A DNA stretch of 64,000 nt from Phycisphaerae bacterium (lineage in GTDB: Bacteria; Planctomycetota; Phycisphaerae; UBA1845), in the NCBI GenBank assembly GCA_028289375.1, contig JANQQK010000046.1, positions 1 through 64,000 of the forward strand. The letters are read 5' to 3'. Shown piece after piece: positions 15,879 through 24,070 of this stretch. The translations under genes and the position numbers were made by a program. The notes beneath the pieces are model-generated. The model was given only the letters and a program-made list of their open reading frames with translations, was not told where the DNA came from and searched no databases. Position 1 is the stretch's first letter; every line of letters begins with the position of its first letter.

Positions 15879-16451
15879 ATGATCCGAGAGTCGGAGCCGC
15901 TAAGTCCGGCAGAATTCGCCGCCGAATACACATCATCCGTCCGCGCATTGTGGGGCGTGGCGGTGGGTGTGGTCGGTGACGCCAGCTTGGCGGAGGACAT
16001 CGTCCAGGAGGCGGCTGTTCTCGCGTTGGGCAAGCTGGACCAGTTCGAGCGCGGTACGCGGTTCGTGGCTTGGATGGGGCAGATGGTGCGCTTTGTCGCG
16101 TTGAACCGGGGTCGCAAAGAGCACAAGCGCCGTCCTGCAGACGTGGACTCGCACACCGTTGAACAGATGGCATCGGACGATGCGTGGCGGGCATCCGTCG
16201 CGGCCACCGGCACGGGCATTGATCTGGACGCGGCGATGTACGAGGCGTTGGGGGAGGTGAACGAGGTGGCGCGGGCGTGCTTGCTCCTGCGTACGCTGGA
16301 GGGTTGCGATTATGCCACGATCGCCGACCTGCTGGGGATTCCTGAAGGCACGGCGATGAGCCACGTCCATCGCACTCGGCAATTTCTACGCGGCCGTCTG
16401 GGCGAACGTGGTGAAACGGGATCGGAGGCGCACGGATTGCGTGATCGGTGA
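15879..16451 (+). CDS. ECF-type RNA polymerase sigma factor (second copy)
   Basis: A 190-residue sigma-70 family protein. Region 2 includes AEDIVQEAAVLALGKLDQFE and the DNA-melting segment FVAWMGQMVRFVALNRGRK. Region 4 carries the helix-turn-helix YATIADLLGIPEGTAMSHVH and an ensuing basic helix. Region 3 is absent. Its stop overlaps the ATG of the next gene by one base, so the sigma factor and its membrane anti-sigma partner are translationally coupled. The pair sits just upstream of the two exported TldD-like genes, which makes those the best guess for a nearby target. It is only weakly similar to the sigma factor at 1817. Confidence 0.92.
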   Translation: MIRESEPLSPAEFAAEYTSSVRALWGVAVGVVGDASLAEDIVQEAAVLALGKLDQFERGTRFVAWMGQMVRFVALNRGRKEHKRRPADVDSHTVEQMASDDAWRASVAATGTGIDLDAAMYEALGEVNEVARACLLLRTLEGCDYATIADLLGIPEGTAMSHVHRTRQFLRGRLGERGETGSEAHGLRDR

Positions 16452-17221
16452 TGGGTGCAGATGAGATGATGGACAAGCTGGACGCCTATCTTGATGGTCA
16501 GTTGAACCCGGCTGAGCGCGAAGCGTTCGAGCGGGAACTGGCAGACCATCCTGCCGTTCTGGCGGAGGTCGAGAAGCAACGTTCGGTGGATGCTTCGATC
16601 AGCCGGCTTTTCCCCATGCCCGATGCGGCGGCGATGGCGTCCCGACTTCCGACAACGGATCACAGCGGCGAAGCACCCGACGTGGTGCCGATTTCCGATG
16701 CTGCGGAGTTGTCCGGTGAAACAGGGAAGCCATCCCCACGTCGACAATGGTTCATGCTCGCCGCCCTGATTGCCATCTGCGGTTTGGCGGGGTGGCGATT
16801 TATGGTGAACTCGGAGGGCGATGCTCAGCCTGATTACTCGACGATGGCGTCGGCGTACCAGACGGAGGTGTCACGCGGGTTCAAGCCGTTGTGGGTGTGC
16901 GAGGATGATGCCGAGTTTGCCCGAACGTTTAAAGACCGGCTTGGTCAGTCGCTCCTGATGAAACCGTTGCCGCAGGGCGTGCGGGCGATTGGTCTGTCGT
17001 ATGCCGAGATCATTTCGGGCAAGACGACCTTTCTCTTGGCAAACGTGGATGGCGACGAGGTTATCGTGTTCATCGACAACGCATCTCATGGTCCGCAGAG
17101 CCTACCCTCGGGCAGCCGACTGCATCTCCATGCCCGTCAGGTCGGCTCCCTGATGCTCTACGAAGTGTCGCGGCTGGATCGGGCGTGGCTGCTTGATGCG
17201 TTTTACGTTCCCTCTGAGTAG
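16451..17221 (+). CDS. Membrane anti-sigma factor
   Basis: A 256-residue protein starting at an ATG that overlaps the sigma-factor stop by one base (a GTG three bases earlier is also in frame). The N-terminal cytoplasmic domain (about residues 1-95) has the helical pattern of anti-sigma factors, MDKLDAYLDGQLNPAERE then FERELADHPAVLAEVEKQ, but no zinc HCxxC. A single transmembrane helix (about 100-117, MLAALIAICGLAGWRFM) leads to a periplasmic domain of about 130 residues with no family I recognise. That domain holds short beta-like segments such as GKTTFLLANVDGDEVIVFID. It presumably sequesters the adjacent sigma factor and senses an envelope signal. Confidence 0.82.
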   Translation: MGADEMMDKLDAYLDGQLNPAEREAFERELADHPAVLAEVEKQRSVDASISRLFPMPDAAAMASRLPTTDHSGEAPDVVPISDAAELSGETGKPSPRRQWFMLAALIAICGLAGWRFMVNSEGDAQPDYSTMASAYQTEVSRGFKPLWVCEDDAEFARTFKDRLGQSLLMKPLPQGVRAIGLSYAEIISGKTTFLLANVDGDEVIVFIDNASHGPQSLPSGSRLHLHARQVGSLMLYEVSRLDRAWLLDAFYVPSE

Positions 17222-17406: not shown

Positions 17407-19116
17407 ATGTTGAGACGACCGAGAGCGTCGTGGTTGATGGCGTTGACGGTATGTGCGATGTGCGCGCCGGCGGTGCCGGCTGGCGAGGAGCATCGTCTGC
17501 TGGCGATCATGGAAAGCGAACTGAAGCTCTCCATGGAGAAGCTCGAAGCGCCTGACGGCACGAAGCCCTACTTCCTCCAGTACAACGTGACGGATGAGAA
17601 GTCGGTGACGATTGGTGCGACACTCGGTGCACTGACCTTCGACGACGCGTCACACAACCGCTACCTGGACATCGATCTGCGCTGCGGCGACTACACGCTG
17701 GACAGCACGCACCAGATTCGCGATCAGGGTTTTGGCGGGCGCATGGGCATGTTCCGCGGGCGGACGTCGCTGCCCTTGGAAGGCGATGCGCTGGCAACGC
17801 GACATGCGTTGTGGCTGAAGACGGATGAGCAGTTCAAGCAGGCATCCAAGCGACTCGCACAGGTACAAGCCAATGTGAAGGTCAAGGTCGAGGAAGAAGA
17901 TCAGTCGGACGATTTCACACGCGAGGATCCGGAGGTCTACATCGGGAAGTTCATCGAGCAGAAGATCGATCAGAAGGCCTGGTCAAAGCGCGTGAAGAAG
18001 TGGTCCGAGGCGTTTCGCAATCACCCTGATGTCTACAACTCAAGTGTGACGCTGACTGGGCGTGTGAACAACCGGTTGGCGGTCAATTCCGAGACCAGCA
18101 AGTTGCAGTTCGGTCGCGGCTGGTGGCGGATCGGCATTCAAGCATCGACAATCGCCGACGACGGGATGGAACTGTTCCAGTATTCGTCGTTTGATGCACA
18201 CACGCCTGAAGGACTGCCGGGTGACGCCACGGTCGAGGCGGCGGTCAAGCAGGTCATCGCCGAGTTGGAGGCACTTCGGGTCGCCCCATTGGTGGAACCC
18301 TACACGGGACCAGCCATTTTCATGAATCGTGCAAGCGGCGTGTTTTTCCATGAGATCTTCGGGCACCGGATTGAAGGACATCGCCAAAAGGACGTCGAGG
18401 AGGGTCAAACGTTCGCGAAAAAGATCGGCAAGGAAGTGCTGCCGGACTTTCTCAGCGTCACGGATGATCCGACCAAAGCCAAGTTCGGAAACATCGAGTT
18501 GAACGGGCATTACCTGTTTGACGAGGAGTGTGTTTCGGGGCAGCCGGTCCATCTCGTTGAGAGTGGGATTCTCAAGACATTCTTGCTGTCGCGGTCGCCA
18601 ACGCGCGGTTTTACAAAGTCGAATGGCCATGGTCGTGCGCAACCGGGGCTGCCGGTGGTGGCGCGGCAGGGCAACCTGATGGTCGAGTCGGCCAAGCAGG
18701 TGTCGTTTCCGAAGCTTCGTGAGATGCTCAAGGATGAGTGCAGAAAGCAAAACAAGGAGTATGGCCTGCTCTTCAAGGATATTTCCGGCGGTTTCACGAC
18801 AACGCGTCGGTTCGGCCCGCAGGCGTTCAAGGTGTTGCCGATCATCGTTTACAAAGTGTACGCCGATGGTCGTGAGGATGAGTTGGTGCGCGGCGTCGAC
18901 GTGGTGGGCACGCCGCTGACCTGCTTCTCGAAGATCCTCGCCACCGCCGACGATCACGATGTCTTCAACGGCATCTGCGGGGCGGAGTCGGGCAGTGTGC
19001 CGGTGTCGGCAATTTCACCGAGCATCCTTGTTGAGCAGATTGAAATCGAGAAGAAGCAGAAGGCGCAGGATCGCCCACCGATTCTCGCACCGCCGATAGC
19101 TGCGAACTCCAAGTAA
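17407..19116 (+). CDS. Exported TldD-like metallopeptidase with complete zinc site
   Basis: A 569-residue protein of the TldD/PmbA (peptidase U62) family. The zinc motif HEIFGHRIEGH starts at His315, giving HExxxH with His315, Glu316 and His320. The distal Cys ligand is Cys524 in GICGAESGSVPVS, matching the Cys that completes the TldD site. TldD proteins in proteobacteria are cytoplasmic, whereas this one begins with a hydrophobic signal sequence (ASWLMALTVCAMCAPAVPAG), implying export. The ATG at 17407 has AGG about seven bases upstream and precedes the signal peptide; the frame extends further upstream without support. The paralogue lacking the zinc site starts 66 bases downstream. TldD/TldE complexes cleave unfolded or modified peptides, but the substrate here is unknown. 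Confidence 0.87.
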   Translation: MLRRPRASWLMALTVCAMCAPAVPAGEEHRLLAIMESELKLSMEKLEAPDGTKPYFLQYNVTDEKSVTIGATLGALTFDDASHNRYLDIDLRCGDYTLDSTHQIRDQGFGGRMGMFRGRTSLPLEGDALATRHALWLKTDEQFKQASKRLAQVQANVKVKVEEEDQSDDFTREDPEVYIGKFIEQKIDQKAWSKRVKKWSEAFRNHPDVYNSSVTLTGRVNNRLAVNSETSKLQFGRGWWRIGIQASTIADDGMELFQYSSFDAHTPEGLPGDATVEAAVKQVIAELEALRVAPLVEPYTGPAIFMNRASGVFFHEIFGHRIEGHRQKDVEEGQTFAKKIGKEVLPDFLSVTDDPTKAKFGNIELNGHYLFDEECVSGQPVHLVESGILKTFLLSRSPTRGFTKSNGHGRAQPGLPVVARQGNLMVESAKQVSFPKLREMLKDECRKQNKEYGLLFKDISGGFTTTRRFGPQAFKVLPIIVYKVYADGREDELVRGVDVVGTPLTCFSKILATADDHDVFNGICGAESGSVPVSAISPSILVEQIEIEKKQKAQDRPPILAPPIAANSK

Positions 19117-19182
19117 GTTGACAACGAGCAAGAGACCATGAGTAGATCAAGAGAAGCAAGAAACGAAACAGGAAGGTCCATC

Positions 19183-20889
19183 ATGGATTGCATGAAATAT
19201 GCGTGTCTGTCGCTGATGTTGGCGGGTTCGGCTGTGGAGTCGTTGGCTGCGTCGGATGATTTGGCGGCGGAAATGAAAAAGGATGTCGTGCTTCGGGCGA
19301 TGGTCGATGAGTTGGGACGCAGCGGTTCGAAGCTCGAACTGGAAGACCTCGAACGTCCGTATTTCATCGAGTATGCCCTGAACGACAGCTACAGCGCTTC
19401 GGTGTCGGCTGATCTGGGAGCTGTGGCAAGTGAGAACGAACGTCATGGCCGACAGCTGCGCGTCGATGTGCGTGTGGGATCGTACGAACTGGACAACACG
19501 AATTTCGCGGATCGGTTTGGCGGATTTGGACGCTTTGGCGGATTTGCACCAATTCCAGTGGAGAATGACTACACCGCCATTCGTCAGGCCATCTGGTGGA
19601 TGACGGATCGCGACTACAAGGACGTGGTCGAGTCTTTCGAGCGCAAGAAGGCGTTCATGGAAACGGTCGTCATCGAAGACAAGCCCAACGACTTTCTGCA
19701 GGTCGAGCCGACCGTCTACTTCGAGGACCACGTGTCGGAAGGACCGGACGTGTCGAAGCTGCGCTCGCTGGCGGTCACGCTGTCGGGCGTTTTCCGCAAG
19801 CATGGGGGCATTAAGAACTCGAACGTGAGTGTCTCGATGGTGACGGGGAACAAGTACCTCGTAAACTCCGAGGGCACACGGATGCGGCAGTCGGGCGCAC
19901 GGGTCACGGTATCGGTGACGGCGTCGGTGCAGGCGGAGGACGGAATGGAGTTGTCCGATTCGATCACGATTCACCGGCGGTCACTCGCGGACCTTCCGAA
20001 GCTGGCAGAATTGCGCGGCAAGTGCGACGAATTGGCCGCACGCATGGTGAAGCTCAGCAAGGCGCCGCTGTTGGATTCCTACACCGGTCCGGTTCTGTTT
20101 GAACCATCCGCGGCAGCGAGCATTTTCTACGGCAACTTTGCGCGGCGCTTCTCGGGCGGGCAGCGACCGGTCGGCAGCCGAAGCGATCCGAACGACTTCG
20201 AGAACAAAATCGGCAAGCGTATTCTGCCGAAGTATCTGAACGTCGTGGACGACCCGACGGCTGCAACGATGCACGATCAGCAGTTGATGGGGCACTATGA
20301 TTACGACGATCAGGGCGTGAAGGCGTCACGGGTTGAATTGGTCAAGGGTGGCCGGCTGAAGAGTCTGCTGATATCGCGCAATCCATCGAAGACATTCAAG
20401 AAATCGACCGGGCATGGGCGAGGTTCGTTCGGGCCACGGGCGTCTGTGGGTTGCCTGGTGGTGTCTGCTGATGAAACGATGAGCGAGGAGGAACTTCGCG
20501 AGGAACTCTGGGAGGCGGCGTCTGATGAGGGACTTGAGTTCGCCCTGCGGATTGCGTCGCTGGGAAGTGCTCAGGAATCCGGTGGCGGTATGTTCGGACG
20601 GTTCCGCGGTCGCGGTGCGACGGTGCCACTGGAGATGTACAAGGTGTACGAGGATGGCCGCGAGGAGTTGGTTCGCGGAGCGGAAATCGCGCGCATCGAC
20701 CTGAAGGCCTTCAAACGCATGCTCGGTGTCGGCGACAAGCCACACGTCATGAATCGCAGCACAAGCGGTGGCACGACGGTCGTCGCACCAGCGATGCTGT
20801 TCGAGGAACTCGATCTCGCGAAGATCGATCGCGATTTCGATCGACCACCGATTCTTAATAATCCGGTCGCGCGCTCCGCTGTGGATTAG
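19183..20889 (+). CDS. Exported TldD-like protein lacking the zinc site
   Basis: A 568-residue paralogue of the upstream gene with the same length and order of conserved blocks, including YFIEYALNDSYSASVSADLG, YTGPVLFEPSAAAS, KSTGHGRGSFGP and YKVYEDGREELVRGAE. At the position of HEIFGHRIEGH it reads IFYGNFARRFSGG, and the C-terminal Cys block is replaced by NRSTSGGTTVVAP. No metal ligand remains, so it cannot be a peptidase of this type by itself. In known TldD/TldE pairs one subunit is also metal-free, which suggests a heterodimer. A signal peptide (CLSLMLAGSAVESLAA) follows the ATG at 19183, whose ribosome binding site AGGAAGG lies six bases upstream. Export of both partners is the unusual point. 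Confidence 0.84.
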   Translation: MDCMKYACLSLMLAGSAVESLAASDDLAAEMKKDVVLRAMVDELGRSGSKLELEDLERPYFIEYALNDSYSASVSADLGAVASENERHGRQLRVDVRVGSYELDNTNFADRFGGFGRFGGFAPIPVENDYTAIRQAIWWMTDRDYKDVVESFERKKAFMETVVIEDKPNDFLQVEPTVYFEDHVSEGPDVSKLRSLAVTLSGVFRKHGGIKNSNVSVSMVTGNKYLVNSEGTRMRQSGARVTVSVTASVQAEDGMELSDSITIHRRSLADLPKLAELRGKCDELAARMVKLSKAPLLDSYTGPVLFEPSAAASIFYGNFARRFSGGQRPVGSRSDPNDFENKIGKRILPKYLNVVDDPTAATMHDQQLMGHYDYDDQGVKASRVELVKGGRLKSLLISRNPSKTFKKSTGHGRGSFGPRASVGCLVVSADETMSEEELREELWEAASDEGLEFALRIASLGSAQESGGGMFGRFRGRGATVPLEMYKVYEDGREELVRGAEIARIDLKAFKRMLGVGDKPHVMNRSTSGGTTVVAPAMLFEELDLAKIDRDFDRPPILNNPVARSAVD

Positions 20890-21145
20890 GCGTGTTGATT
20901 GGTGCGACCTTAGGGAGAGGATGATTTCGTTTGGTTTGATTTTGCAGGAGAAATTGATTTTTTGACTCTGATGCCATGACATGCATCGTGACGTAATCTG
21001 CCTGATTGAAGGGAGTTATGACCATTGGGCGCCTGAAGGTCGGCGCGGCCGGAGGCGATATTGGGGTTGACCAGCGTCAAAAACAATTGGTAATTTACCG
21101 AAATATTGGTTGCGTTTCCGCTCTCACTTCTCAGGAGTCAAGAAA

Positions 21146-21895
21146 ATGGCCACGGCACGTCAAATCGGATCGCGAGGGCAACGAATGTTCAGAGCATTGG
21201 AATCGGTGCTCATCTTCGGATTGGTGGCTTGCTGTGTATGTGCTCAAAGCCAGCCAAACGACGCGACTGAAAATGTTGGTAACGGGTTGCCGGAAAAGAT
21301 CACACTTGAGTTCTTATGGGACCATCCGATCATTCACAGTGCGAATGGCCATGTCGAGCGTTTGGCTGATGGTACATGGCAGATTGTGCTTGAGGATATG
21401 GAGAGTCCATTGGAATTTGTCCCCGTGCGCGGCAAGTCGGACTTTCCGGAACGCGCCATGGTTGAGGGTAGAGTTGATATTGGTGTTCATGGAAACCTGA
21501 TGGTTCTGGGTGTAAATACGGAAGCCGGTGTGTCACATCAGGCTGCGATCGAGTTGACCGAGGATGAAGCCGTAAAGATCAGCGACGGCAATCGGCGTCG
21601 CCTTCTGAATCCGCCAACGACCCGTGAATCGCTGAAGAAACTGGAGGAGATCCGGAAGCGTCTTCTGATCATGTCGCAACAGGCCACGCTGTTGCCACAA
21701 TTCGGAATGCTTGGGGAGATCACAGCGGCACAAAGCTCTCTCCAGGCATGTCCGGGTGGTTCCTGTATTTGTTTTCTCGTGTGCCGGGCCTGTTGTCCTG
21801 CTGGAACCCTGCCGTCGTGTACCTGCATTTTCCTGGAACAGTATTCATGTCAATGCACTACAGTGGAAACCACGAATCGTGCACCCGATGAGTAG
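21146..21895 (+). CDS. Secreted protein of unknown function with cysteine-rich tail
   Basis: A 249-residue protein not recognised as any family. It has a signal sequence (ALESVLIFGLVACCVCAQ), then a soluble region of about 155 residues, then a compact tail near the end with about ten cysteines. The tail contains the stretches ACPGGSCICFLVC, ACCPAGTLPSCTC and YSCQC. It ends with a short charged segment. Cys spacing of this kind suggests disulphide cross-links outside the cell or a processed small peptide. The start at 21146 has GGAG about eight bases upstream. The gene is followed by a strong terminator and preceded by a 256-base gap, so it is likely a single transcription unit. Confidence 0.75.
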   Translation: MATARQIGSRGQRMFRALESVLIFGLVACCVCAQSQPNDATENVGNGLPEKITLEFLWDHPIIHSANGHVERLADGTWQIVLEDMESPLEFVPVRGKSDFPERAMVEGRVDIGVHGNLMVLGVNTEAGVSHQAAIELTEDEAVKISDGNRRRLLNPPTTRESLKKLEEIRKRLLIMSQQATLLPQFGMLGEITAAQSSLQACPGGSCICFLVCRACCPAGTLPSCTCIFLEQYSCQCTTVETTNRAPDE

Positions 21896-22072: not shown

Positions 22073-24070
22073 TTATCGTCCGCCGAGTTTGACATCAATG
22101 ATGACGTCGCTGTCTCCACGACGCACCGTCACCTTGACGACGTCGCCGGGTTTGTTGTTTCGCAGGGCGGCCATGTAATCCTGGATGTTGGCGATTTTGG
22201 CGTCGCCGATGCGTGTGATGACGTCGCCGGTCTGCATGCCGGCCTTTTCGGCAGGTCCGCCGCTGCTCACGCCGTCGATGGCCATGCCGACGTTGTTGTC
22301 GGCGTAACCGGGCATGATGCCCATGACGACCCCGGAACGCCGACCGGAGACCTGTGCCCGCGCTTTGACTTCATTGTACGTGACGCGGTCGTCACGCTCG
22401 CTGATGTCGTAGGCGATGGCTGCGACGACGTCTGTGACTCGGGCGCCGCCTTCGGCGTTGACCTTGTCGACGTCGTCGTTTGGACGGTGGTAGTCGCCGT
22501 GCAGGCCGGTGAAGACATGCACGGACGGAATCTTCTTTTCGTAGAACGGCGAATGATCGCTCGGACCGCTCGCGCTCTCACTGCCGCGCAGGACCATACC
22601 GGCGTCGCTGACGTGTCGGGCGATCATCGTCTCGAACTCCTCCGCAGCTTTGGTCCCGAAAACCTGCAGGGTTTGGCCGTCCTCGTCGAACCGGCCGATC
22701 ATGTCCATGTTGATCATGGCCACCGTGTCTTCCAGCGGGACGGTCGGATTTTCGACGTAGTGCTTGCTGCCAAGCAGTCCTACTTCTTCGGCGGTAAAGG
22801 CGATGAGCATGACGCTGCGCTTAAGCGGGCGGCGGGCGGCGAGGATGCGTCCTGACTCGATGATGCCCGCAGTGCCCGATGCGTTGTCGTCGGCGCCGTT
22901 GTGAATGCGTGGGGTGTTGTCGCTGCGGTCACTGCGGAGCATCATCGACGTCGGGGCCTTGCCGAGATGGTCGTAGTGTCCACCGATGACGACGAATTCG
23001 TGCGACAACGGCCCATCGCCAGGAATGATGCCGATGACGTTGCGTTCGCGCGTGTAAGACTTCTGCACGCCGCTGTCACCGGACATGCGGATGCCGGCGA
23101 GCACGCGCGAGACATTCTGCCCTTCGTCGGCAGCAGCCTGGAGGGAGGCTTGTGCGTCGGAACCACCAGCCGCGAGCAATGCAGAGGCCATCTCCTGCGT
23201 GATGTGGAAGGACGGGATGCCGAAATCGGATCGCTGAGCACGGAAGCGCATCAGTCGATCCTCGACGTTGTCGTCGTGACGGTTCACGATCAGGACGGCG
23301 GCGGCCCCTTTTTCCTTGGCGGTGTACACCTTGTTCCGGAACGTGGCCTTCCGCGTTGTCTGCCCCGGACCACCCCACGACGGCGGTTCGCGACGAAGCA
23401 TCAACACGACCTTGTCGGTGACATCGATGCCCGCGTAGTCGTCATGATTCTCCTCAGGGTTCACGATGCCATAGCCAACAAACGCGACCTCGCCATCGAA
23501 CGAATCGCCGCCGGAGAAACCGAACGGGATGTAATCGGTACCGCGCGCGATGGGCATGCTGATGCCATCGACCGCGAAGTTGTGCTCATCGGTCAGCTTG
23601 CCGCCCAGGGCGACGTCAAACTCCTGGAAGTAGGTACCGTTGTCACCACCCGGTTGAGCACCGATGAGGGCGTATTGACCGGCGATGTAGGCGGCAGCCT
23701 GATCGATGCCGCGTGACCCAATGCCGCGACCACCCAGGTTGTCGTCAGCGAGGACAGCCACGTGCGCGAGAAAATCATCGGGGTGCACCTTGAGGGCAGC
23801 GGCGGACCGCTCCTTGGCACCGGGCGATGGAATGGAGACAGCCTCGACGACCGCAGTCGGGGTCGAATCGGCGGCTGGCTTCGTTTCGACAGGAGTGACG
23901 GCAGCCGCCGGTTCCGCAGACGCCATCTCCGGTGCCGCAGGTTGCGGACCAGTATGGTGCTGCATGGTCGTGATGGGCTTTGATTCCGGTGCCTCGCAAC
24001 CGGCGAGGGTGAATACAACCGACAGCATGGCAGTCGTGCTGAGGATTCGTCGCATGGAAGTTTCGTGCAC
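22073..24070 (-). CDS. M28-family aminopeptidase lipoprotein with C-terminal PDZ domain
   Basis: A 665-residue protein. A short signal ends in the lipobox TLAGC (Cys25), followed by a Pro/Ala-rich linker. A PA-like insert domain lies near residues 150-300. The M28 catalytic residues follow: GGHYDHLG, NGADDNASGTAG, AFTAEEVGLLGS, MINMDMIGR and LHGDYHRPNDD, giving the two-zinc set of His, Asp, Glu, Asp and His. The last 90 residues form a PDZ domain (SSGGPAEKAGMQTGDVITRI). PDZ-containing M28 peptidases trim or import peptides outside the cytoplasm. The GTG at 24070 has GGAG nine bases upstream; a later ATG lacks a site. Confidence 0.92.
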   Translation of the reverse strand: MHETSMRRILSTTAMLSVVFTLAGCEAPESKPITTMQHHTGPQPAAPEMASAEPAAAVTPVETKPAADSTPTAVVEAVSIPSPGAKERSAAALKVHPDDFLAHVAVLADDNLGGRGIGSRGIDQAAAYIAGQYALIGAQPGGDNGTYFQEFDVALGGKLTDEHNFAVDGISMPIARGTDYIPFGFSGGDSFDGEVAFVGYGIVNPEENHDDYAGIDVTDKVVLMLRREPPSWGGPGQTTRKATFRNKVYTAKEKGAAAVLIVNRHDDNVEDRLMRFRAQRSDFGIPSFHITQEMASALLAAGGSDAQASLQAAADEGQNVSRVLAGIRMSGDSGVQKSYTRERNVIGIIPGDGPLSHEFVVIGGHYDHLGKAPTSMMLRSDRSDNTPRIHNGADDNASGTAGIIESGRILAARRPLKRSVMLIAFTAEEVGLLGSKHYVENPTVPLEDTVAMINMDMIGRFDEDGQTLQVFGTKAAEEFETMIARHVSDAGMVLRGSESASGPSDHSPFYEKKIPSVHVFTGLHGDYHRPNDDVDKVNAEGGARVTDVVAAIAYDISERDDRVTYNEVKARAQVSGRRSGVVMGIMPGYADNNVGMAIDGVSSGGPAEKAGMQTGDVITRIGDAKIANIQDYMAALRNNKPGDVVKVTVRRGDSDVIIDVKLGGR

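Follow-up and report, generated by a model that had tools for sequence, protein, structure and literature searches.

What would a peptidase of a family described as intracellular do outside the cytoplasm, and why would it be encoded beside a relative without a metal site? These questions are raised by two adjacent genes, here called D and E, in the window, the whole stretch of 64,000 nucleotides of Phycisphaerae DNA that was analysed (Table 1). TldD/TldE has been described as an intracellular protease which is present in about 60% of bacteria (PMC10885120). Our conclusion is that D and E are probably two halves of one exported metallopeptidase of the TldD/TldE type, with the clearing or recycling of periplasmic peptides as its most likely task. 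The formation of a heterodimer in vivo, the metal, the peptidase activity, the compartment and the substrate are what we infer for this pair from the comparisons described below.

Table 1. Features of the D and E genes, in positions of the window
Feature	Position	Strand	Basis
Gene D, putative exported TldD-like zinc metallopeptidase subunit	17407..19116	+	ATG 17407; 569 aa plus stop; translation
D signal peptide (predicted), residues 1-25, MLRRPRASWLMALTVCAMCAPAVPA	17407..17481	+	sequence, rule-based scan of relatives, negative controls, hydrophobic core
D HEIFGH, predicted zinc ligands His315/His320 and catalytic Glu316	18349..18366	+	invariant in 49/49 D sequences
D Cys524, predicted third metal ligand, in GICGAESG	18976..18978	+	invariant 49/49; aligned region of TldD Cys454
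Gene E, putative exported metal-free partner	19183..20889	+	568 aa plus stop; PF19289, PF19290; AlphaFold model
Shine-Dalgarno-like AGGAAGG upstream of E	19170..19176	+	6 nt before ATG 19183
E signal peptide (predicted), residues 1-22, MDCMKYACLSLMLAGSAVESLA	19183..19248	+	sequence, relatives, hydrophobic core
E YGNFAR, residues 316-321, ligand-less counterpart of HEIFGH	20128..20145	+	alignment of E with D

The family PF19289 (PmbA_TldD_3rd) matched D with an E-value of 2.6e-27 and 95.8 bits and its neighbour with an E-value of 2.6e-20 and 73 bits (Pfam, cut-off 22 in both cases), and these two proteins are its only members in the genome. The central domain PF19290 was weakly matched in E (E-value 5e-05), and the nearest solved relative of D is E. 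coli TldD (5nj5_A, E-value 1.3e-11). Naming the proteins by Pfam or NCBIfam alone was rejected because the TldD equivalog models stayed below their cut-offs, with 43 bits for NF008006 (cut-off 513) and 70 bits for NF040952 (cut-off 635). PF01523, the N-terminal PmbA_TldD domain, found no match in D, in E or in the whole 5-Mb genome, yet the region concerned is still spanned by the match to the TldD fold. The alignment showed H315, E316, H320 and C524 in all 49 D sequences, and Cys524 fell in the region of E. coli TldD Cys454, which is a proven metal ligand (PMC5810440). When E was aligned directly with D, its Tyr316, Gly317 and Arg321 stood opposite His315, Glu316 and His320 and an equivalent of Cys524 was absent; none of 48 E sequences has a histidine at position 315 or a cysteine at position 524. 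The initial annotation had described adjacent paralogues of equal length with zinc ligands in the first only, which is what we see in the 569 residues of D and the 568 of E. The start of E was placed at ATG 19183, an earlier in-frame ATG at 19138 having no AGGAAGG-like site ahead of it.

This division of labour is the same as in E. coli TldD/E, a hollow heterodimer whose metal is bound by TldD only and whose shell is completed by TldE, and which draws unfolded peptides into its interior and cuts them without sequence preference (PMC5810440; review PMC10885120). For this reason, a chamber peptidase outside the cytoplasm is the best reading of the pair. Each chain would be exported by its own signal peptide, or both as one chain where the genes are fused, and D and E would assemble 1:1 outside the cytoplasm. 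D would hold the single zinc site, formed by His315, His320 and Cys524, with Glu316 as the general base, while E, its own site lost, would complete the hollow shell, which would make it stable and leave space for the substrate. If the 'pencil sharpener' model of TldD/E is a guide, only unfolded or short peptides would enter the chamber, to be cut irrespective of sequence, and its most likely role would be the clearance or recycling of periplasmic peptides.

Could the exported pair be an amide hydrolase of the TldD fold instead of a protease, acting on a small or non-peptide substrate of the envelope by deacylation or by opening an amide? The lincosamide N-deacetylases, which are heterodimeric, belong to the TldD/TldE superfamily, and a 2022 review by Vobruba is said, going by its title, to count N-deacetylases as well as peptidases among its members. 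The exported D proteins also have an invariant motif of their own, SNGHGR, whose histidine and arginine are almost fully kept in E and whose histidine is replaced in canonical TldD in the alignment; because the motif is particular to the exported clade, the substrate site may differ. We nevertheless regard an amide hydrolase as unlikely, since HExxxH and the cysteine are fully conserved, the fold matches the peptidase TldD, and no biosynthetic cluster is conserved nearby.

The pairing of D with E was followed in 80 related loci from Planctomycetota, Verrucomicrobiota, Acidobacteriota, Aminicenantes, Zixibacteria, Cloacimonadota, Eisenbacteria and a few others. E lies directly downstream of D on the same strand in 75 of them, the median distance between the two being about 5 nt, and in one more the two occupy a single open frame. 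As for the remaining four, the contig ends inside D in one (L084), E is found elsewhere in the genome in two (L082 and L083), and the last (L081, genome G529) has D only; no E was detected in this assembly, which is 89% complete and whose contig ends soon after D. A phylum search, the loci around its matches and a species-wide scan agree on the pairing. D is present in 57 of the 397 genomes of the window's class and is accompanied by E in 55, the two others being G529 and G630, where D lies at a contig edge; in Acidobacteriota, E was found in all 17 genomes with D. Since it recurs in dozens of genomes, the arrangement is not due to chance. In one locus (L075:5971-7665) a single in-frame TAG breaks D while the adjoining E is intact, which reflects either an error in sequencing or a recent pseudogene. 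The rate of evolution is higher in E than in D (dN/dS 0.04-0.34 versus 0.02-0.25), yet E is clearly under purifying selection. The initial annotation had proposed to look for the same pairing in other planctomycetes and had named a partner absent or drifting in relatives as evidence against its reading; we found the pairing far beyond the planctomycetes and the partner both retained and constrained. In several genomes (G192, G019, G508, G577, G582, G499, G502, G666 and G715) the exported pair or the D gene is present two or three times, and this multiplicity suggests different substrates or conditions.

Three clean D-E fusions occur in separate lineages, namely in Planctomycetota (L044), in the window's own order (L175) and in Acidobacteria (L102, whose own start lies beyond the contig edge). 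All three are in frame, with no internal stop and no second signal peptide, and we take them as the strongest genetic sign that D and E may act 1:1 in one compartment. An apparent fusion across two contigs of G109 (L042/L043) was left out of this count because the contig ends are chimeric. AlphaFold modelled the L102 fusion as one chain of 1132 residues with a pLDDT of 85.0 and a pTM of 0.84, from an alignment in which D and E rows were joined through a read-through TGA and to which E-only rows were added; when D-only and E-only rows were aligned jointly with the fusion, E was piled onto D, and this version was discarded. The pTM of 0.84 indicates that the two halves are confidently placed against each other; for the interface of pairs that are not fused, a value from a fused chain is indirect evidence. 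The D half of this fusion, on which the TldD fold of D was judged in place of the window's D, superimposed on E. coli TldD (5nj5_A) with Z 34.9 and an rmsd of 3.2 over 440 residues. The window's E was modelled with a pLDDT of 90.5 and a pTM of 0.88 and matched TldE and TldD structures with Z of about 23-25 over 403-437 residues, the N-terminal half included (Foldseek was also run). Identity to TldD in the structural alignments is low, at about 17-18%, and a viral fold library gave no match. The fusions and the confident fold of one of them also lend support to the closed chamber built from both genes which the initial annotation had in mind.

It might be argued that D alone forms a homodimer with two zinc sites and that E is a separate regulator or decoy and not half of a shell. 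The closest leaderless relatives, which we call 'long' proteins, are encoded by single genes, have a full zinc site and may be homodimers; Sulfolobus TldD is reported to be active as a homodimer, as cited in PMC5810440, and G529 has D with no E detected. Against these observations stand the near-universal pairing, the three fusions and a model in which both halves are packed together with confidence, and we consider D acting without E improbable.

Is the probable D/E chamber then simply TldD/TldE provided with signal peptides? In a tree of 90 proteins, which has long branches and was built by a quick search method, exported D, exported E and the leaderless 'long' proteins form one clade to which neither canonical TldD nor canonical TldE belongs. 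This separation is fully supported by SH-aLRT, and the branch measures 1.93 changes per column. The 'long' clade (L014-L027, L036 and L049; for example L036:2203-3879), sister to the exported pair, consists of leaderless, single-gene proteins which keep the zinc site HEA(L/M/I)GH and the cysteine; a metal-free partner was not found for them, and they are possibly homodimeric peptidases. Forcing exported E together with TldE made the full-length tree worse by 137 log-likelihood units (p-AU 5e-56), and the tree of the C-terminal domain alone by 52 units (p 0.005), a less strong rejection. Moreover, Arg396, His408 and Arg410 of exported E are common to exported D and the 'long' proteins and are mostly missing in TldE. 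Since E groups with exported D and not with TldE, the split into an active and an inactive subunit most likely arose a second time, and the inactive subunit of the exported pair was most likely invented separately from TldE. In the simplest history that these sequences suggest, a zinc-bearing ancestor, probably a homodimer, would have been duplicated and one copy would have lost its site, apart from the origin of TldE. The long branch of the exported sequences, and the warning in the C-terminal-domain tree of long branches meeting, could be taken to mean that the tree was misled and that the two are orthologues of TldD and TldE which gained signal peptides. Given the cost of joining exported E with TldE, the three shared residues and the lack of any PF01523 match in the genome, we find such orthology very improbable. 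A TldD/PmbA tree had been proposed in the initial annotation, and it separates what stands in its TldDE-like extracytoplasmic reading from what does not: the architecture and the probable location are kept, but the metal-free partner falls with exported D, so that by descent the pair is not TldD/TldE moved outside.

The leaders of D and E, which are followed by GEE and ASDD, respectively, are clear by eye. We scanned the 80 related loci with a home-made rule, not SignalP, which looks for a start codon, an n-region, a hydrophobic core of 10-12 residues and small residues at -3 and -1, and by this rule 76 of 81 D frames and all 75 E frames have a signal peptide. Each of the five other D frames either starts at a contig end or close to one, is the latter half of a broken D gene, or comes after ambiguous sequence. 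Both D and E therefore look exported as far as this rule can tell, and the initial statement that both genes carry signal peptides is borne out for the pair and its relatives. Export by the Tat pathway was rejected, as RR-like leaders are few and follow no consensus. It is hardly credible that these leaders are mispredicted and that the pair works in the cytoplasm: the call does come from a permissive rule-based scan rather than SignalP, but a leader with a hydrophobic core and an AxA-like site is present in all 75 E proteins and in each D that is readable and not truncated, canonical TldD and TldE and the 'long' relatives have none under a comparable hydrophobicity check, and the fusions L044 and L175 retain the first signal peptide only.

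What would the exported chamber act on? No conserved neighbours besides D and E themselves were found in the compared loci, and none that points to a substrate. In about 15 loci, most of them acidobacterial, the next gene after the pair is LptF/LptG, and 9 loci, mostly planctomycete, share another gene family downstream of it; both were rejected as functional partners, as they look like local synteny. At L095:5002-7329 and in similar acidobacterial loci, a frame of 776 aa with two LptF/LptG permease stretches comes directly after the pair. In the window, an ECF sigma factor gene and then a probable anti-sigma gene (15879-17221, +) lie directly upstream of D, the latter with a relative only in L176, from the same genus, among the compared loci. 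Just downstream of the pair is an orphan gene (21110-21892, +) whose product has a Cys-rich tail (CPGGSCICFLVCRACCPAGTLPSCTCIFLEQYSCQC) and, in all likelihood, a signal peptide; the compared loci contained no relative of it and no family match was convincing. A peptidase that combines M28, PA and PDZ domains and probably has a leader of the lipoprotein type (22073-24070, -) points towards the pair and is a second likely envelope peptidase near it. The initial annotation had suggested that secreted or modified peptides might be trimmed; trimming of RiPPs was rejected because no peptide-modification gene recurs nearby. The sampled pair-bearing members of the window's family have no PF01523 genes, but such genes do occur in 34 of 54 genomes with the exported pair, so that a general replacement of cytoplasmic TldDE was rejected as well. 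A plasmid collection gave distant, canonical TldD-like matches only. The lack of conserved neighbours and of a recurrent modification gene, together with the many genomes that have both the pair and PF01523 proteins, favours general clearance over the maturation of a particular product, and with low confidence we suggest that short unfolded peptides are cleared or recycled in the periplasm. The broader picture, which we lean towards only slightly, is that of a second, independently evolved active/inactive chamber peptidase of the TldD fold, serving general peptide clearance outside the cytoplasm in many uncultured phyla (Planctomycetota, Verrucomicrobiota, Acidobacteriota, Aminicenantes, Zixibacteria, Cloacimonadota and Eisenbacteria) and sometimes made as one fused chain.

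Most likely, then, the pair combines a known fold and a probable known mechanism with a new compartment and an independently evolved inactive subunit. We found no paper on an exported TldD in the open-access literature, which is weak evidence of absence as it covers open-access papers only. With the exported version, the cell envelope would contain a closed peptidase that selects by size, a kind of chamber not expected there. The natural single-chain fusions are 1:1 constructs ready for use in studies of structure and activity. Its closest known counterpart is E. coli TldD/TldE (PmbA; MEROPS M103, PDB 5NJ5), which is like the exported pair in fold over nearly the full length, in PF19289 and in having one subunit with HExxxH and a remote cysteine and another which is metal-free. 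The E. coli proteins are cytoplasmic and of about 450-480 aa, whereas the mature chains of the pair, with their predicted export, have about 545 aa; the metal-free subunit of the pair is not an orthologue of TldE, its N-terminal domain is not matched by PF01523, and SNGHGR, invariant in exported D, is absent from E. coli TldD. The 'long' proteins, for which a published description was not found, share with the pair the length class, the full zinc site and cysteine, the clade and both His408 and Arg410, but they have no signal peptide and no metal-free partner was found, and they are likely homodimeric. By description, the TldD of Sulfolobus solfataricus is, like D, a zinc peptidase of the TldD type, and it is reportedly a homodimer without TldE (Hu et al. 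2012, as cited in PMC5810440). The lincosamide N-deacetylases, likewise by description, are relatives within the superfamily and differ as small-molecule deacetylases encoded in antibiotic clusters. If the inactive subunit did arise twice, the TldD/TldE and exported families together provide a test of why a half-dead heterodimer has repeatedly been favoured over a homodimer.
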